Source: Bacteroidales bacterium (GTDB lineage Bacteria; Bacteroidota; Bacteroidia; Bacteroidales; UBA3824). Taken from it: 53,027 nucleotides of DNA. Location: the NCBI GenBank assembly GCA_017541145.1, contig JAFXZT010000097.1, forward strand, positions 1 through 53,027. The letters are read 5' to 3'. The translations under genes were made by a program, and so were the position numbers. Of the stretch, positions 3,460 to 33,123 are shown piece after piece (the first letter of the stretch is position 1; every line of letters begins with the position of its first letter). The notes beneath the pieces are model-generated. The model made no database searches. It was not told the origin of the DNA and saw only the letters and a list, made by a program, of their open reading frames with translations.

Positions 3460-3623
3460 ATAACATGTAATTTTTCGTAAGTAAAATTATTTAAGTTTCG
3501 CAAGAAATTTTTTTTCACCTGATAAAACAAATCATTCTTAATAAAATAAAATCAACAAGTATAAATTGTTTAATTTGTTGACAAAATACATCTACAAAAT
3601 ATAAAATCAGAGAATTTAATAAC

Positions 3624-28287: not shown

Positions 28288-28923
28288 TCATTGCACCATT
28301 TCCAATGCGGTTTTCATCTGTGAATATGTGAATTGCCCCGGTGCAGTTGCGTTGCCATAGTCTGAAGCTACGTATGTAAATTCTGCACCGCATTTCAAAC
28401 TTGCGAGTCGTGTAATTTTGCCGAGACTTCCCATGCCGAAAACTACGATATTTTTGTGTTTATTGTACATCGAAAGTATTGTAGCGTTGTCGTCAACAGA
28501 ATTTACCTGACATGCTATTTTTACTATATCAGCGTGATTTTCAAAGCATTGGTCGATAATTTCCGTAAGACTTTCGGCTGACGGCGTTTCTTTGAAATTG
28601 TGATAAGAAACTATCAGTTTGCAGTTGGTACCTTGGCAAGCATTCTTGATTCTCTGAGCTTTTTCGATTCCGCGTTCTATCTCGATGTCGATATATTTTG
28701 CACCGGATTTAGCCGCAGTTTCGAGGTATTGCATCGAAGTTTCTTCGTCGAAAACACCGGGACGGCATGTTACAATGAAATCAATATTTTTGTCGGCAAG
28801 CAGCTGTTTCAGTTCGTCTATTGACGGTTTTACAAGGTCGATTCTTAGTTCAGCGTGCTTGTTTCCGTTTAGTTGTTTCATTGCTTGGTCAACTCCCGGA
28901 GCCGACAAACAGATGTATAACAT
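28288..28923 (-). CDS. aroD: 3-dehydroquinate dehydratase, type I
   Basis: 211 aa, a type I (Schiff-base) enzyme. AELRIDLVKP carries the substrate-binding Glu-x-Arg, VSYHNFKETP the catalytic His, and IVKIACQVNS the Schiff-base Lys. The C-terminal TAPGQFTYSQM closes the active site. It removes water from 3-dehydroquinate in the shikimate pathway, in the cytosol. It is the last gene of the operon and starts 12 nt after the DAHP synthase/chorismate mutase gene. At 211 aa it is slightly short for the family (about 225-250) but appears complete. Confidence 0.92.
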   Translation of the reverse strand: MLYICLSAPGVDQAMKQLNGNKHAELRIDLVKPSIDELKQLLADKNIDFIVTCRPGVFDEETSMQYLETAAKSGAKYIDIEIERGIEKAQRIKNACQGTNCKLIVSYHNFKETPSAESLTEIIDQCFENHADIVKIACQVNSVDDNATILSMYNKHKNIVVFGMGSLGKITRLASLKCGAEFTYVASDYGNATAPGQFTYSQMKTALEMVQ

Positions 28924-28935
28924 ATTTTTCTCTAA

Positions 28936-30012
28936 TTACTTGGTTTCGTTGTTTTTACCGTTTATTACATCTACTTGGATATTGATAGATGCTTGATGAA
29001 TTGCAGTAAAAATCTTGGTAATCAGTTCCTTATCGAGATTTTTCTCCGCACCTTTTTCAACATATTTATTGAGAATAGCATCCCAACGCGACGGCTGGAG
29101 AACAGTCATGTTGTTAGCCTTTTTGTATTCACCGATTTTTTGAGAAATACCCATTCTTTTCTGAAGTGTATCGAGAAGTTCAGCGTCAATCTGGTCGATT
29201 TTGTAACGCAATTCATTGAGTGATTCCATAGAAATACCATCAGGATTAACTTTTCTAACTACCAATTGATCAACCATTTTCATCAAATCGTTAGGAGTGA
29301 GTTGCTGTTTAGCATCGCTCCAAGCTTCGTCGGGATTGCGGTGAGATTCAATCATAAGACCGTCAACATTAAGGTCGAGAGCTTTTTGAGAGATTTCAAA
29401 CAAGTATTCTCTTTTTCCGGCGATGTGAGAAGGGTCGCAAATCAAAGGAAGGTCCGGACGGCGGCGTCTTATTTCGATTGGAACTTGCCAAATAGGAGCG
29501 TTTCTGTAAAGAATTTTTTCGTAAGACGAGAAACCTCTGTGGATAAGTCCGATTTGAGTAAGACCGGCAGCTTCAAGTCTTTCGATAGCACCAAGCCAAA
29601 GTTCAACATCAGGATTAACCGGATTTTTTACGAAAACCGGAATATTGCAACCCCTCAAACTGTCAGCGATTTCCTGCATTGCAAACGGGTTGGCTGTTGT
29701 ACGTGCACCAATCCAAAGGATGTCAATACCGGCTTTTATTGCGTCCCAAACGTGTTTTACGTTGGCAACTTCGGTAGAGATAAGCATACCGGTTTCTTTT
29801 TTTACTTCGCGCATCCATTCCAAACCTACAGCACCTACGCCTTCAAAATTTCCCGGTCTTGTACGAGGTTTCCAAATGCCGGCACGAAATACTTTTATAC
29901 CGTTTTTGGCAAGTTGACGGGCTGTATCAATTGTTTGTTCTTCGGTTTCTGCTGAACACGGACCTGCAATAATCCATGGTTTTTGTCCGAATATTTCGTC
30001 GAAATCTTTCAT
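28936..30012 (-). CDS. Bifunctional 3-deoxy-7-phosphoheptulonate synthase / chorismate mutase
   Basis: 358 aa. The N-terminal DAHP synthase of the type I-beta, KDO8P-synthase-like group (about 1-255) has IIAGPCSAETEEQ, FRAGIWKPRTRPGNFEG, LWIGARTTANPFAMQEIAD and LPLICDPSHIAGKREY. The C-terminal AroQ chorismate mutase (about 268-350) has LRYKIDQIDAELLDTLQKRM and the conserved Lys in IGEYKKANN. The first activity starts the shikimate pathway; the second converts chorismate to prephenate. The fused mutase may also serve as an allosteric module, as in other AroG/AroA-CM fusions. Located 12 nt from both neighbours, so tightly cotranscribed. Confidence 0.95.
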   Translation of the reverse strand: MKDFDEIFGQKPWIIAGPCSAETEEQTIDTARQLAKNGIKVFRAGIWKPRTRPGNFEGVGAVGLEWMREVKKETGMLISTEVANVKHVWDAIKAGIDILWIGARTTANPFAMQEIADSLRGCNIPVFVKNPVNPDVELWLGAIERLEAAGLTQIGLIHRGFSSYEKILYRNAPIWQVPIEIRRRRPDLPLICDPSHIAGKREYLFEISQKALDLNVDGLMIESHRNPDEAWSDAKQQLTPNDLMKMVDQLVVRKVNPDGISMESLNELRYKIDQIDAELLDTLQKRMGISQKIGEYKKANNMTVLQPSRWDAILNKYVEKGAEKNLDKELITKIFTAIHQASINIQVDVINGKNNETK

Positions 30013-30024
30013 TTTATATTGTGT

Positions 30025-30870
30025 TTATTTGTTAAGTACTTTTTTGATTTTGTTTGCGTTGAAAATATAATTGTCGATACCTACAGTGTCTTCGTTTTCC
30101 AAAAGACGTTTGAAATCTTGAAGCTTTTCAATATAAGTATTCAGTACCGTAAGAATATTTTCCTTGTTGTTTTCAAAAATCGGAACCCACATCTCGGCAT
30201 TACTTTTTGCAAGACGAACTGTACTTGAAAAACCGCCTGATGCAAGGTTGAAAATATTTTTCTCGTTTTTCTCTTTTTCCAACACTGTGAGTGCCAATGC
30301 AAAAGAGCTGATATGAGAGATATGTGATACGTATGCTACATGTACATCGTGATTTACAGAATTGAAAAACATCGGGTTCATGTTGAGTACCGAAAACATC
30401 TTTCTTACCTCTTGAACGGCTTTTTCGTCGGAATCCTCGGTGTCGCACATGATAACTGCTTTACCGTCAAACATGCCGGAAATCGCAGACCACGGACCTG
30501 AATTTTCTGTGCCTGCCATCGGGTGACATGCCACAAATCTTTTTCTGTTGCTGTGATATTTTACTCGTTCACAGATAGTTGCTTTGGTAGAACAGATATC
30601 AATTACAATTTGGTTTTCGTTGATTTTTTCCAAAACTTGCGGTAAAATTTTCAGAGCCGCACCAACAGGAACTGCTACAATAATTATATCTCCGTTTTTG
30701 ATAACTTCATCCATAGTCATCTCTTCGTCAATAAGACCGACTTGTTTTGCATAACCTTGGTTTACAGGACTTTTGTCGTAACCGAAAATTCTGTCAGCAA
30801 AATGGCGTTTTCTTAAATCCAATGCCATAGAGCCGCCTATAAGTCCCAAACCTATTATCGATAATTTCAT
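30025..30870 (-). CDS. tyrA: Prephenate dehydrogenase
   Basis: 281 aa. Rossmann fold with GLGLIGGSMALDLRKR at the N-terminus, the catalytic region VACHPMAGTENSGPWSA, and the helical C-terminal dimer domain. Oxidises prephenate to 4-hydroxyphenylpyruvate for tyrosine synthesis. No ACT domain, so feedback control probably lies with PheA, DAHP synthase or the attenuator. Operon neighbours: aminotransferase 26 nt upstream and the DAHPS/mutase 12 nt downstream. Confidence 0.93.
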   Translation of the reverse strand: MKLSIIGLGLIGGSMALDLRKRHFADRIFGYDKSPVNQGYAKQVGLIDEEMTMDEVIKNGDIIIVAVPVGAALKILPQVLEKINENQIVIDICSTKATICERVKYHSNRKRFVACHPMAGTENSGPWSAISGMFDGKAVIMCDTEDSDEKAVQEVRKMFSVLNMNPMFFNSVNHDVHVAYVSHISHISSFALALTVLEKEKNEKNIFNLASGGFSSTVRLAKSNAEMWVPIFENNKENILTVLNTYIEKLQDFKRLLENEDTVGIDNYIFNANKIKKVLNK

Positions 30871-30896: not shown

Positions 30897-32051
30897 TTAA
30901 TCCAATCTGTTTAAAGCTTTAGTCATCAAATCTTCGGGACTGCAAAGCGACAAGCGGATGTATTGATCACCGTTTTTACCGAATATGAATCCCGGTGTTA
31001 AGAAAATGGATTTTTCATAAAGCAGATAATCAGCACATTCGTTACCGTCCTTGAAACGTTCCGGCACTCTTGCCCAAAGGAATAATCCGGCTGTATCGTG
31101 ATTGTAATTTTTGCAACCTAATTTGTCAAGGAACGCAAAACCGATTTTTCTGCGGCGTTCGTATGTTTCGTTTATCGATTTGTACCAATCGTCACCCGCA
31201 TTTAGAGCCGTAATTGCGCCTTCCATTATCGGTTTGTACATGCCGTTGTCGTAATTTGATTTTACACGTAAGATACAGTCAATCACATCTTTGTTGGCAA
31301 AAGCTGCACCCATACGCATTCCCGGCAGATTGCTTGCTTTGGATAATGAATTTAGTTCAACACAAACATCCAACGCATCAGGATTTTGCAACAAACTGTT
31401 AGCTTTTTGAGTGAGAATCAAGCTGTAAGGATTGTCGTTAACAAGAATAAATTTCTTTTTGCGGGCAAGGCTTATAAGTTTTTCAAACAAACCCGGTTTA
31501 GCTTGCTGAGCGGTCGGCATGCCGGGATAAGTAGTCCACATCACTTTGGTTTTGTCGTCGATAAGCGATTCCAATTCGTTGAAATCCGGTTGCCAATCGT
31601 TTTCTTCTTTGAGGTTGTAATATTTGATATTAGCACCCACGAGTTTTGCAGCGGCGGTGTATGCCGGATATCCGGGATCCGGAATTAAAACAGTGTCGCC
31701 GGGATTTACAAAAGCCATGTGAATCAACAAAATGCCTTCTTTACTACCCATAAGAGGCAGAATTTCGGAAGCAGGGTTTACCTCAACGTGGTATATTCTT
31801 TTGTACCAATTTGCAAAAGCCTCTCTCAATTCGGGCAAGCCACGATAACCTTGATATGCGTTGCTGAACGGTTTGTAAAGGGCTTCTGAAATAGATTTGT
31901 GAACTTCAGGCAAAGGTTGCAAGTCAGGGCAGCCTATGCCAAGATGTATGATGTCAGCTCCTTTTTTTTCGAGCTCGGCAATTTCGCTTCTTTTTTTTGA
32001 GAAGTAATATTCCTCAACTTTTGCAATACGTTGTGCAGGTTCTACTACCAT
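30897..32051 (-). CDS. Class I/II pyridoxal-phosphate aminotransferase (probable aromatic/aspartate type)
   Basis: 384 aa, fold-type I. MGSKEGI, PDPGYPAYTAA, NDNPYSLI and the PLP-lysine segment ELNSLSKASNLPGMRMG are visible, with Arg in QYIRLSLC binding the substrate carboxylate. Similarity spans LL-diaminopimelate and aromatic aminotransferases; between pheA and tyrA the natural role is amination of phenylpyruvate and 4-hydroxyphenylpyruvate (inference from context). Cytosolic; 21 nt after pheA. Confidence 0.9.
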   Translation of the reverse strand: MVVEPAQRIAKVEEYYFSKKRSEIAELEKKGADIIHLGIGCPDLQPLPEVHKSISEALYKPFSNAYQGYRGLPELREAFANWYKRIYHVEVNPASEILPLMGSKEGILLIHMAFVNPGDTVLIPDPGYPAYTAAAKLVGANIKYYNLKEENDWQPDFNELESLIDDKTKVMWTTYPGMPTAQQAKPGLFEKLISLARKKKFILVNDNPYSLILTQKANSLLQNPDALDVCVELNSLSKASNLPGMRMGAAFANKDVIDCILRVKSNYDNGMYKPIMEGAITALNAGDDWYKSINETYERRRKIGFAFLDKLGCKNYNHDTAGLFLWARVPERFKDGNECADYLLYEKSIFLTPGFIFGKNGDQYIRLSLCSPEDLMTKALNRLD

Positions 32052-32072: not shown

Positions 32073-32918
32073 TTATTGATTATGTATTTTACTCCATGAT
32101 TGCTCGCCTTCCATGTATTCGCCGAGGATATGAATTTCTTTCAACAACGGTCTGATGGCGGTAAGCATATTTTGATAGCGGTTTTTGTCGTTGAACTTCA
32201 CGTCGATATAAAACATGTAGTTGAGCGGCTGACCTATAATCGGCAACGATTCAATTTTTGTAAGATCGATACCGTAATACGAAATCATGCTGAGAATCTG
32301 AGCCAGACTTCCGAGCTGATTCGATAAAATGATGTTTAACGAAGCCTTGTTGTATTCGTCGGGACCGCATTCGCTGCCGCGCTGAATTACAAAAAAGCGG
32401 GTATAATTTTTCTTGTTTGTTTCAATACCCTCGGCAACGATATTCAGACCGTAAAGTCCGGCAGCAAGTTCGCCTCCTATCGCTCCGACATTTTCCAATT
32501 GACCTTCCGATACTTCTCTGAGAGCCAACGCTGTATCCGAACATTCCACCAATTTGATATTCGGGTATTTTCTGAAAAACTGTCGGGTCTGATTGATAGC
32601 CATGTAGTGACTTCTTACCTCAGTGATGTCGTTGATGGAAACGCCGGGCAAGGCTGCAAGATTCTGTTTGATACGGATAAAAATTTCACCGCAGATTTTT
32701 ACATCTTTTTGTCTGAGCAGATTCAGATTAGAATGTATAGTGCCGGCAATAGTATTTTCGATTGCAAACATGCCGTAATCGCTTTCAAAATCAGTAACAC
32801 TGTCCAAAACTTCCTCAAATGTCATCTTTTCTACGATGTCGATATCCTTTCCGGAAAAAAATTCCCGAGCTGCTTCTTCGTGGAATGCTCCGCGAACACC
32901 TTGTATAGCTATTTTCAT
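32073..32918 (-). CDS. pheA: Prephenate dehydratase
   Basis: 281 aa from the ATG at 32918; the upstream ATG at 32948 lies within the terminator stem and is rejected. Catalytic domain (1-180): IAIQGVRGAFHEEAA, FAIENTIAGTIHSN, and the catalytic Thr region NYTRFFVIQ. C-terminal ACT domain (about 195-275): NQLGSLAQILSMISYYGIDLTKIESLPI, the place where Phe binds in homologues; the usual ESRP reads ESLP. It converts prephenate to phenylpyruvate. First gene of the operon pheA-aminotransferase-tyrA-DAHPS/CM-aroD, preceded by a leader-peptide attenuator. Confidence 0.95.
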   Translation of the reverse strand: MKIAIQGVRGAFHEEAAREFFSGKDIDIVEKMTFEEVLDSVTDFESDYGMFAIENTIAGTIHSNLNLLRQKDVKICGEIFIRIKQNLAALPGVSINDITEVRSHYMAINQTRQFFRKYPNIKLVECSDTALALREVSEGQLENVGAIGGELAAGLYGLNIVAEGIETNKKNYTRFFVIQRGSECGPDEYNKASLNIILSNQLGSLAQILSMISYYGIDLTKIESLPIIGQPLNYMFYIDVKFNDKNRYQNMLTAIRPLLKEIHILGEYMEGEQSWSKIHNQ

Positions 32919-32928
32919 CTTTTTGTGT

Positions 32929-32968
32929 AAAAAATAAAAAAGCCTCAACCTTGTGAAAGGGTGAGGCT
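32929..32968 (-). terminator. Attenuator terminator upstream of pheA
   Basis: On the minus strand a 12-position stem (32968-32957 with 32952-32941) with one mismatch and a 4-nt loop, followed by a T-rich tract (32941-32929). It ends only 11 nt before the pheA ATG and lies downstream of the promoter and leader ORF. Confidence 0.88.
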
Positions 32969-33014
32969 CAAATTACTTTATTTTAAATTTTTATGTTCAA
33001 CTAACTACAAAGTA

Positions 33015-33083
33015 TTATCGCCTCACTTTATTGCTAAAGTAAAAATAAAAGGCAAAATAATATGATTTGTTCATTGTAGTCAT
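33015..33083 (-). CDS. Phe/Tyr-rich leader peptide of the aromatic amino acid operon (22 aa)
   Basis: ATG at 33083, TAA at 33017-33015. Residues 8-16 are YYFAFYFYF: four Phe (all TTT) and four Tyr codons (three TAT, one TAC) in nine positions, followed by SNKVRR. A second in-frame ATG is at codon 4. Composition, position about 26 nt after the predicted transcription start, and the terminator that follows are those of attenuation leader peptides such as PheL. The peptide itself probably has no function beyond ribosome stalling on uncharged tRNA-Phe or tRNA-Tyr. Confidence 0.85.
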   Translation of the reverse strand: MTTMNKSYYFAFYFYFSNKVRR

Positions 33084-33115
33084 TATATGTTCTGTTTTTG
33101 TTTATCTTTATGCCG

Positions 33116-33123
33116 CAAAGTTA
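33116..33123 (-). promoter_or_regulatory. -7 box (TAACTTTG) of the aromatic operon
   Basis: TAnnTTTG match on the minus strand, putting the transcript start near 33109. No TTG at proper distance upstream, where the sequence is nearly all A/T. Confidence 0.55.

Follow-up and report, generated by a model that had tools for sequence, protein, structure and literature searches.

A putative Phe/Tyr leader-peptide attenuator before pheA in a Bacteroidales bacterium, and its relatives across Bacteroidia

Little is known of how the Bacteroidia, bacteria that are abundant in the gut and in the environment, regulate the synthesis of their amino acids. The question is raised by a 53,027-nt stretch of DNA from a Bacteroidales bacterium (here called the window), in which a short ORF with Phe and Tyr codons precedes pheA on the minus strand: does this leader control the genes behind it, and do related bacteria share it? 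From the conservation of the ORF, the pairing of its tail with the 5′ arm of a terminator and the compensatory changes in the stems, we infer classical ribosome-mediated transcription attenuation in response to Phe and Tyr. The pheA leader is very probably an attenuator of this kind, which would sense charged tRNA-Phe and tRNA-Tyr and control an operon for both amino acids. The initial annotation had proposed a Phe/Tyr leader-peptide attenuator with competing antiterminator and terminator, and conservation, compensatory changes and pairing controls support that proposal. A counterpart of the textbook Phe control of E. coli, with Phe plus Tyr codons, is thereby indicated across the class.

The five genes from pheA to the 3-dehydroquinase lie on the same strand and are separated by small gaps (Table 1). 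The best NCBIfam model for the pheA product is prephenate dehydratase, below its cut-off; the gene is taken to start at the ATG at 32918, the TTG at 32948 given by the ORF lister not being the likely start. Domain searches found both pheA and tyrA in the operon, as had been claimed, and the four Phe and four Tyr codons of the leader stand before it. The operon downstream of the leader encodes steps of Phe and Tyr synthesis, as expected of attenuation. Among 80 named loci, prephenate dehydrogenase and prephenate dehydratase are encoded on one strand in 68, some of the other 12 being cut by contig ends.

Table 1. Features of the pheA leader and the operon behind it (window positions)
Feature	Position	Strand	Basis
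Promoter box TAACTTTG, TAnnTTTG, -7 type of Bacteroidota	33116..33123	-	sequence; motif counts in relatives
Leader ORF MTTMNKSYYFAFYFYFSNKVRR and stop, 22 codons (ATG 33083-33081, stop 33017-33015)	33015..33083	-	sequence, conservation
Start-codon region; pairs with 33010-33002 past the stop, closes the 1:2 domain	33074..33082	-	folds
Regulatory codons YYFAFYFYF (4 Phe, 4 Tyr, one Ala)	33036..33062	-	sequence
Region 1, inside the aromatic codons; pairs with 33024-33013 (anti-antiterminator)	33049..33062	-	fold and genus covariation
Region 2, GTGAGGC, in the last leader codons	33020..33026	-	sequence, pairing tests, genus covariation
ACTTT, antiterminator extension; pairs with AAAGT 32979-32975	33009..33013	-	window sequence and fold only
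Region 3, terminator 5′ arm (GCCTCAC 32967-32961); partner is region 2 or region 4	32961..32968	-	pairing tests, folds
Intrinsic terminator hairpin	32941..32968	-	fold and genus alignment
Terminator U tract (end about 32929)	32929..32941	-	sequence
pheA, prephenate dehydratase (PDT) with ACT domain	32073..32918	-	PF00800, E 2.2e-55; ACT below cut-off
Aminotransferase class I/II	30897..32051	-	domain search
tyrA, prephenate dehydrogenase (PDH)	30025..30870	-	domain search
DAHP synthase–chorismate mutase fusion (DAHPS/CM)	28936..30012	-	domain search
Type I 3-dehydroquinase (DHQase)	28288..28923	-	domain search

Within the leader region, the positions first assigned to leader, terminator and pairing were recovered from the sequence to the base. 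These included the 22-codon ORF with its eight aromatic codons in nine positions and both parts of the alternative pairing, GTGAGGC with GCCTCAC and ACTTT with AAAGT. The leader is the sole ATG-started ORF of 8–40 aa with at least 7/9 F/Y/W residues in the whole window, both strands considered. The terminator folds at -16.3 kcal/mol (z -4.7), and the fold of the whole leader has a z of -2.97. A simple consensus terminator scan called no terminator at the pheA leader, probably because the stem contains a mismatch.

A leader of this type is conserved well beyond the genus. It was defined as an ATG-started ORF of 8–45 aa with at least six F/Y/W among nine residues, lying at most 450 nt upstream of the gene and ending before it. 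PDT (PF00800) was present in 68/148 genomes of the order and 41/149 of the class. An F/Y-rich leader preceded it in 57 of the 67 usable order genomes, against 0.89 expected (shuffle mean; maximum 4); this set includes the window and one congener, and L198 was dropped as it had no upstream sequence. In other orders the count was 21 of 36 genomes, against 0.19 expected (maximum 2), while none was found in 29 loci of other classes, which were the best-scoring 29 of about 190 matches and not a fair sample. Within the genus, every locus with upstream sequence had the leader (15/15; of 17 fetched, L013 and L018 lacked such sequence and were dropped). The leader was missing by the definition in 10/67 order and 15/36 other-order genomes. 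Among these 25, an aromatic ORF is present all the same in three (L203, with a GTG start; L214, in an ATT-started frame; and L223, at -499), and pheA stands right behind another gene in four (L173, L174, L137 and L171); the rest have no aromatic ORF or only a weak one.

As to the composition of the aromatic run, both F and Y occur in the best nine residues of 151 of 154 distinct leaders, three lacking Y, which fits a joint Phe/Tyr operon. Outside the aromatic codons the peptide varies between relatives. Alignment with relatives, the check that the initial annotation had set against its own claim, found the leader ORF and the stems conserved rather than absent. Trp also occurs in the aromatic run of 23 of the 154 leaders (for example L049, L050, L052, L054, L057, L059, L060, L154 and L177), as if all three aromatic amino acids mattered to the operon through the DAHP synthase step that they share.

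A promoter motif recurs in front of the leader. TAnnTTTG occurs no more than 90 nt upstream of the leader ATG in 44/56 order genomes (2.9 expected from mononucleotide shuffles), 10/21 other-order genomes (1.5 expected) and 15/16 members of the genus (0.4 expected), mostly at a distance of 15–35 nt; it is the consensus reported for flavobacteria in PMC9723704. A Shine-Dalgarno-like motif of the AGGA type is rare, with 1/56, 0/21 and 0/16 in the same three sets. Any translation of the leader would therefore begin without a Shine-Dalgarno site, which agrees with the lack of these sites that PMC9723704 notes in flavobacteria.

The start site, the translation of the leader, the stalling and the response to Phe and Tyr are all predicted from sequence, and together they suggest the following course of events. 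The RNA would start directly downstream of the TAnnTTTG box. Under a shortage of Phe or Tyr, the ribosome would stall on the aromatic codons and cover region 1, leaving region 2 to pair with region 3; the terminator would then not form, and the operon would be read. When both amino acids are plentiful, the ribosome would reach the stop codon directly behind region 2 and cover this region, so that regions 3 and 4 would pair and transcription would end before pheA. In an untranslated leader, the 1:2 helix would hold region 2, again allowing the terminator. Stalling at the last two aromatic codons would already place the ribosome over part of region 2, so that simple release seems to fit the earlier codons only.

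Folding of the window sequence reproduces the competition between helices. In the full stretch 3:4 wins, and in a stretch ending just before the U tract 2:3 forms instead, at -20.1; the antiterminator extension at ACTTT is present in the fold of 33030-32942. The 2:3 helix reaches 94.6% pairing over the 14 distinct rows of the genus alignment, against at most 53.7% for control slides, and contains a compensatory change at column pair 65:130 (UA in 9 rows, CG in 5). The terminator helix, 3:4, is 97.3% paired and has its own compensatory change at 130:149; column 130 hence covaries with a different partner in each helix, the pattern required of structures that exclude one another. The 1:2 helix joins the aromatic codons to the end of the ORF. 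It is 86.2% paired, and two of its pairs (33:72 and 34:70) show compensatory changes; the 1:2 hairpin is thus present as a predicted, covarying helix at the level of the genus. The choice between antiterminator and terminator had been foreseen correctly by the initial annotation; this third stem, formed by 33062-33049 with 33024-33013, it had missed. Read by eye, 14/15 genus folds showed an outer stem, in varying places, in which the first codons pair with sequence past the stop.

In paired cells and covariation score, 2:3 and 1:2 exceeded all 500 shuffles of the genus alignment, the cells being sequences and not events, with few independent lineages in the genus. The covariation score of the terminator is not exceptional, being reached by 57/500 shuffles, and in none of the three helices did the number of pairs with changes on both sides stand above shuffles (reached by 466/500 for 2:3 and 433/500 for 1:2).

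Beyond the genus, pairing was assessed in 72 of the 79 loci with a leader, out of 105 given for the order and class. Pairing of the terminator 5′ arm with the sequence that follows the aromatic codons has a mean of -13.6 kcal/mol, against -7.3 for shuffles. At p≤0.05 the pairing surpassed the locus's own shuffles in 63/72 of these loci and in 14/15 of the genus, and it was better than three control windows in 70/72 and 15/15, respectively. When arms were exchanged between 128 loci (184 entries less 41 lacking a leader, 12 in which no terminator was detected and 3 duplicates, L017 having been entered twice), the mean was -13.5 with the locus's own arm and -8.9 with the arms of others; the own pairing was within the best 5% in only 60/128 and the best in 12/128. 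This test is blunt because a TCCCG core is common to many arms, which is why shuffles and control windows were used as well. In the same 128 loci, and with the search reaching up to 45 nt past the last aromatic codon, the partner of the arm falls, relative to the end of the stop codon, anywhere from 43 nt upstream to 18 nt downstream. A partner placed from the last codons to just past the stop would be covered by a ribosome at the stop, and in the relatives the C-terminal leader codons track the RNA pairing. The TCCCG core of the arms, and CGGGA in the leader tails, recur in the order and class across very different leaders; this core could be a mark of shared ancestry or of a factor that reads it.

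It is extremely improbable that AT-rich sequence, with its TTT and TAT codons, produced the leader ORF by chance before an ordinary terminator. The region is AT-rich, and in the 450 nt upstream a short ATG-started ORF with at least 6/9 aromatic codons arose in 98/5000 dinucleotide shuffles, though one with 8/9, as in the window, arose in 1/5000. Against chance stand the leaders of the 57 order and 21 other-order genomes, where shuffles yield 0.89 and 0.19, and the match between leader tail and terminator arm. In a second reading, codons and terminator are real, but the ORF plays no part and a ligand-binding RNA, a T-box or a protein exerts the control. T-boxes and riboswitches, too, take the form of a structured 5′ region that ends in a terminator ahead of amino acid genes; yet the part conserved here is the F/Y ORF, and the partner of the arm keeps near the stop (-43 to +18 nt in the 128 loci, within a search that reached 45 nt past the last aromatic codon). 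Moreover, an Rfam search of the window found no family at threshold, T-box and other leader families included, and in 20 related loci it found two tRNA genes only, both outside the leaders. The search for an existing Bacteroidota family at the leader, as advised by the initial annotation, thus returned none at threshold, and control by such an element is very unlikely.

The remaining alternative, to which we give a small probability, is that the leader acts mainly on pheA translation, or that its peptide works in trans, with termination secondary. Leader peptides with functions in trans are known, peTrpL being one (PMC7298713). Here, however, the peptide varies outside the aromatic codons, its C-terminal codons follow the RNA pairing, and a hairpin with a U tract stands between leader and gene in 131 of 143 leader entries (3 of the 131 being duplicates).

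The window locus has a single attenuator, and some relatives appear to have two. This tandem arrangement is the most unusual feature of the family, and lies outside what the initial annotation considered. Two F/Y-rich ORFs in series were found in 12/67 order genomes and 2/36 genomes of other orders; L156, counted among them, may be false, its second leader having no preference for its own terminator. In 23 of 25 candidate loci (those with both terminators detected, some of them closely related), a preference for the leader's own terminator was seen for the first leader in 21 loci, for the second in 20 and for both in 18. Loci where each of the two leaders has a separate terminator, preferred by the tail of that leader, include L144, L170, L202, L209, L215, L220, L229, L049, L053–L055, L057, L059 and L060. 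A PDT tree of 111 sequences requires at least 10 changes of the tandem state, the tree being a quick one with several weak branches and ORF-based labels, from which three short PDT pieces were dropped. The tandem share of its rows has no meaning since ten named loci were added largely for being tandem.

Ribosome-mediated attenuation requires a ribosome that keeps pace with RNA polymerase. The spread of the family without Shine-Dalgarno sites would imply close coupling of transcription and translation in the leader regions of the phylum, and the leaders make such coupling in Bacteroidota directly testable. It is likely, on the whole, that a Phe-plus-Tyr family undetected by Rfam extends across Bacteroidia, that two complete attenuators in series have been gained or lost repeatedly, placing two independent ribosome checkpoints before one operon, and that close coupling is implied. 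The tandem leaders offer a natural two-checkpoint logic to study.

Of known systems, E. coli pheL is among the closest, and the mechanism is the same. When the K-12 sequence was compared, the aromatic run FFFAFFF stood against YYFAFYFYF here, and GGGAGGC/GCCTCCC against GTGAGGC/GCCTCAC; in E. coli, too, the terminator is followed by TTTTTTATT and then by pheA. The differences are that E. coli uses Phe codons only rather than Phe and Tyr, that its region 2 lies after the stop and not within the last codons, and that its tyrA and aroF are on the other strand, whereas here there is one operon. Homology with pheL on the strength of the GAGGC core and the FFFAFFF and YYFAFYF runs was rejected, since most other listed loci use other cores; the GAGGC-type core was seen in the genus, and the likeness is probably convergence. 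Membership of Rfam Phe_leader (RF01859) was likewise rejected, the full-length weak match scoring 22.9 bits against a threshold of 55. In the order, 0/99 genomes exceeded the RF01859 threshold and 23 had weak matches. One sub-threshold match of 39.4 bits (L245, G377:C897:22654-22772) lies just upstream of a PDT gene (22979); no other among the matches listed for RF01859 was matched to a PDT gene.

Within the phylum, Bacteroid-trp (RF01692) is presumably a leader-peptide attenuator, which would fit the ORFs with WW or WWW held by 6/6 of its hits in the order. It was over threshold in 5/99 order genomes, with 6 at E≤0.001, under stricter filters by which weak matches are lost; no match was listed in the window and none at the pheA leader. 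It resembles the present leader in being a cis-regulatory element of the same phylum (so listed in 2010 in PMC2864571) and differs in its Trp codons. For Flavobacterium psychrophilum, likewise in this phylum, PMC9723704 reports hints that leader peptides bring about attenuation before amino acid biosynthesis operons; the passage names no operon, and pheA may or may not belong. In B. thetaiotaomicron, sORFs resembling leader peptides are mentioned in PMC7366714, and PMC6429828 reports F/Y uORFs at shikimate genes among its five genomes. For the tandem arrangement, the mgtCBR operon of Salmonella offers a likeness (PMC3641672), with two leader ORFs in series before one operon; it is not concerned with amino acid biosynthesis, whereas both leaders of the present relatives are F/Y-rich, most with their own terminator and matching tail.

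The initial annotation was aware of no description from the phylum, but attenuation is in print there, with Bacteroid-trp (RF01692) and the F. psychrophilum report (PMC9723704). No description of a Phe/Tyr leader of Bacteroidota was among the literature matches listed, supplementary tables aside, and an earlier pheA listing is possible. A survey of attenuation across bacteria by Lopatovskaya et al. (2010, Mol Biol 44:128) could hold earlier predictions for the phylum. Passages from PMC9723704, PMC7366714, PMC2864571, PMC6429828, PMC4833913 and PMC7819879 describe no Phe or Tyr leader in Bacteroidota. The class-wide Phe/Tyr family and the tandem variant in relatives seem undescribed.

The same genome holds further candidate leaders. 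For ilvD, I/L/V-rich ORFs were seen in its own genome, and none was judged a leader. Before trpB (TIGR00263), which precedes a chorismate-binding gene on the same contig, stands a short ORF, MMIHVALYNRYWWRLQ (L252:1416, plus strand, offset from 0; G000:C84), a probable Trp leader that the Bacteroid-trp model search did not report for this genome. A probable His attenuator leader, an ORF with HHLHHHH, stops some 140 nt short of hisG (L253, minus strand, about 3476-3590 of the reverse complement; G000:C54); its reading begins at a TTG, and an internal ATG gives MKLFNSHIAFHHLHHHH. Together these Trp and His leaders suggest that attenuation probably serves several pathways in this genome.
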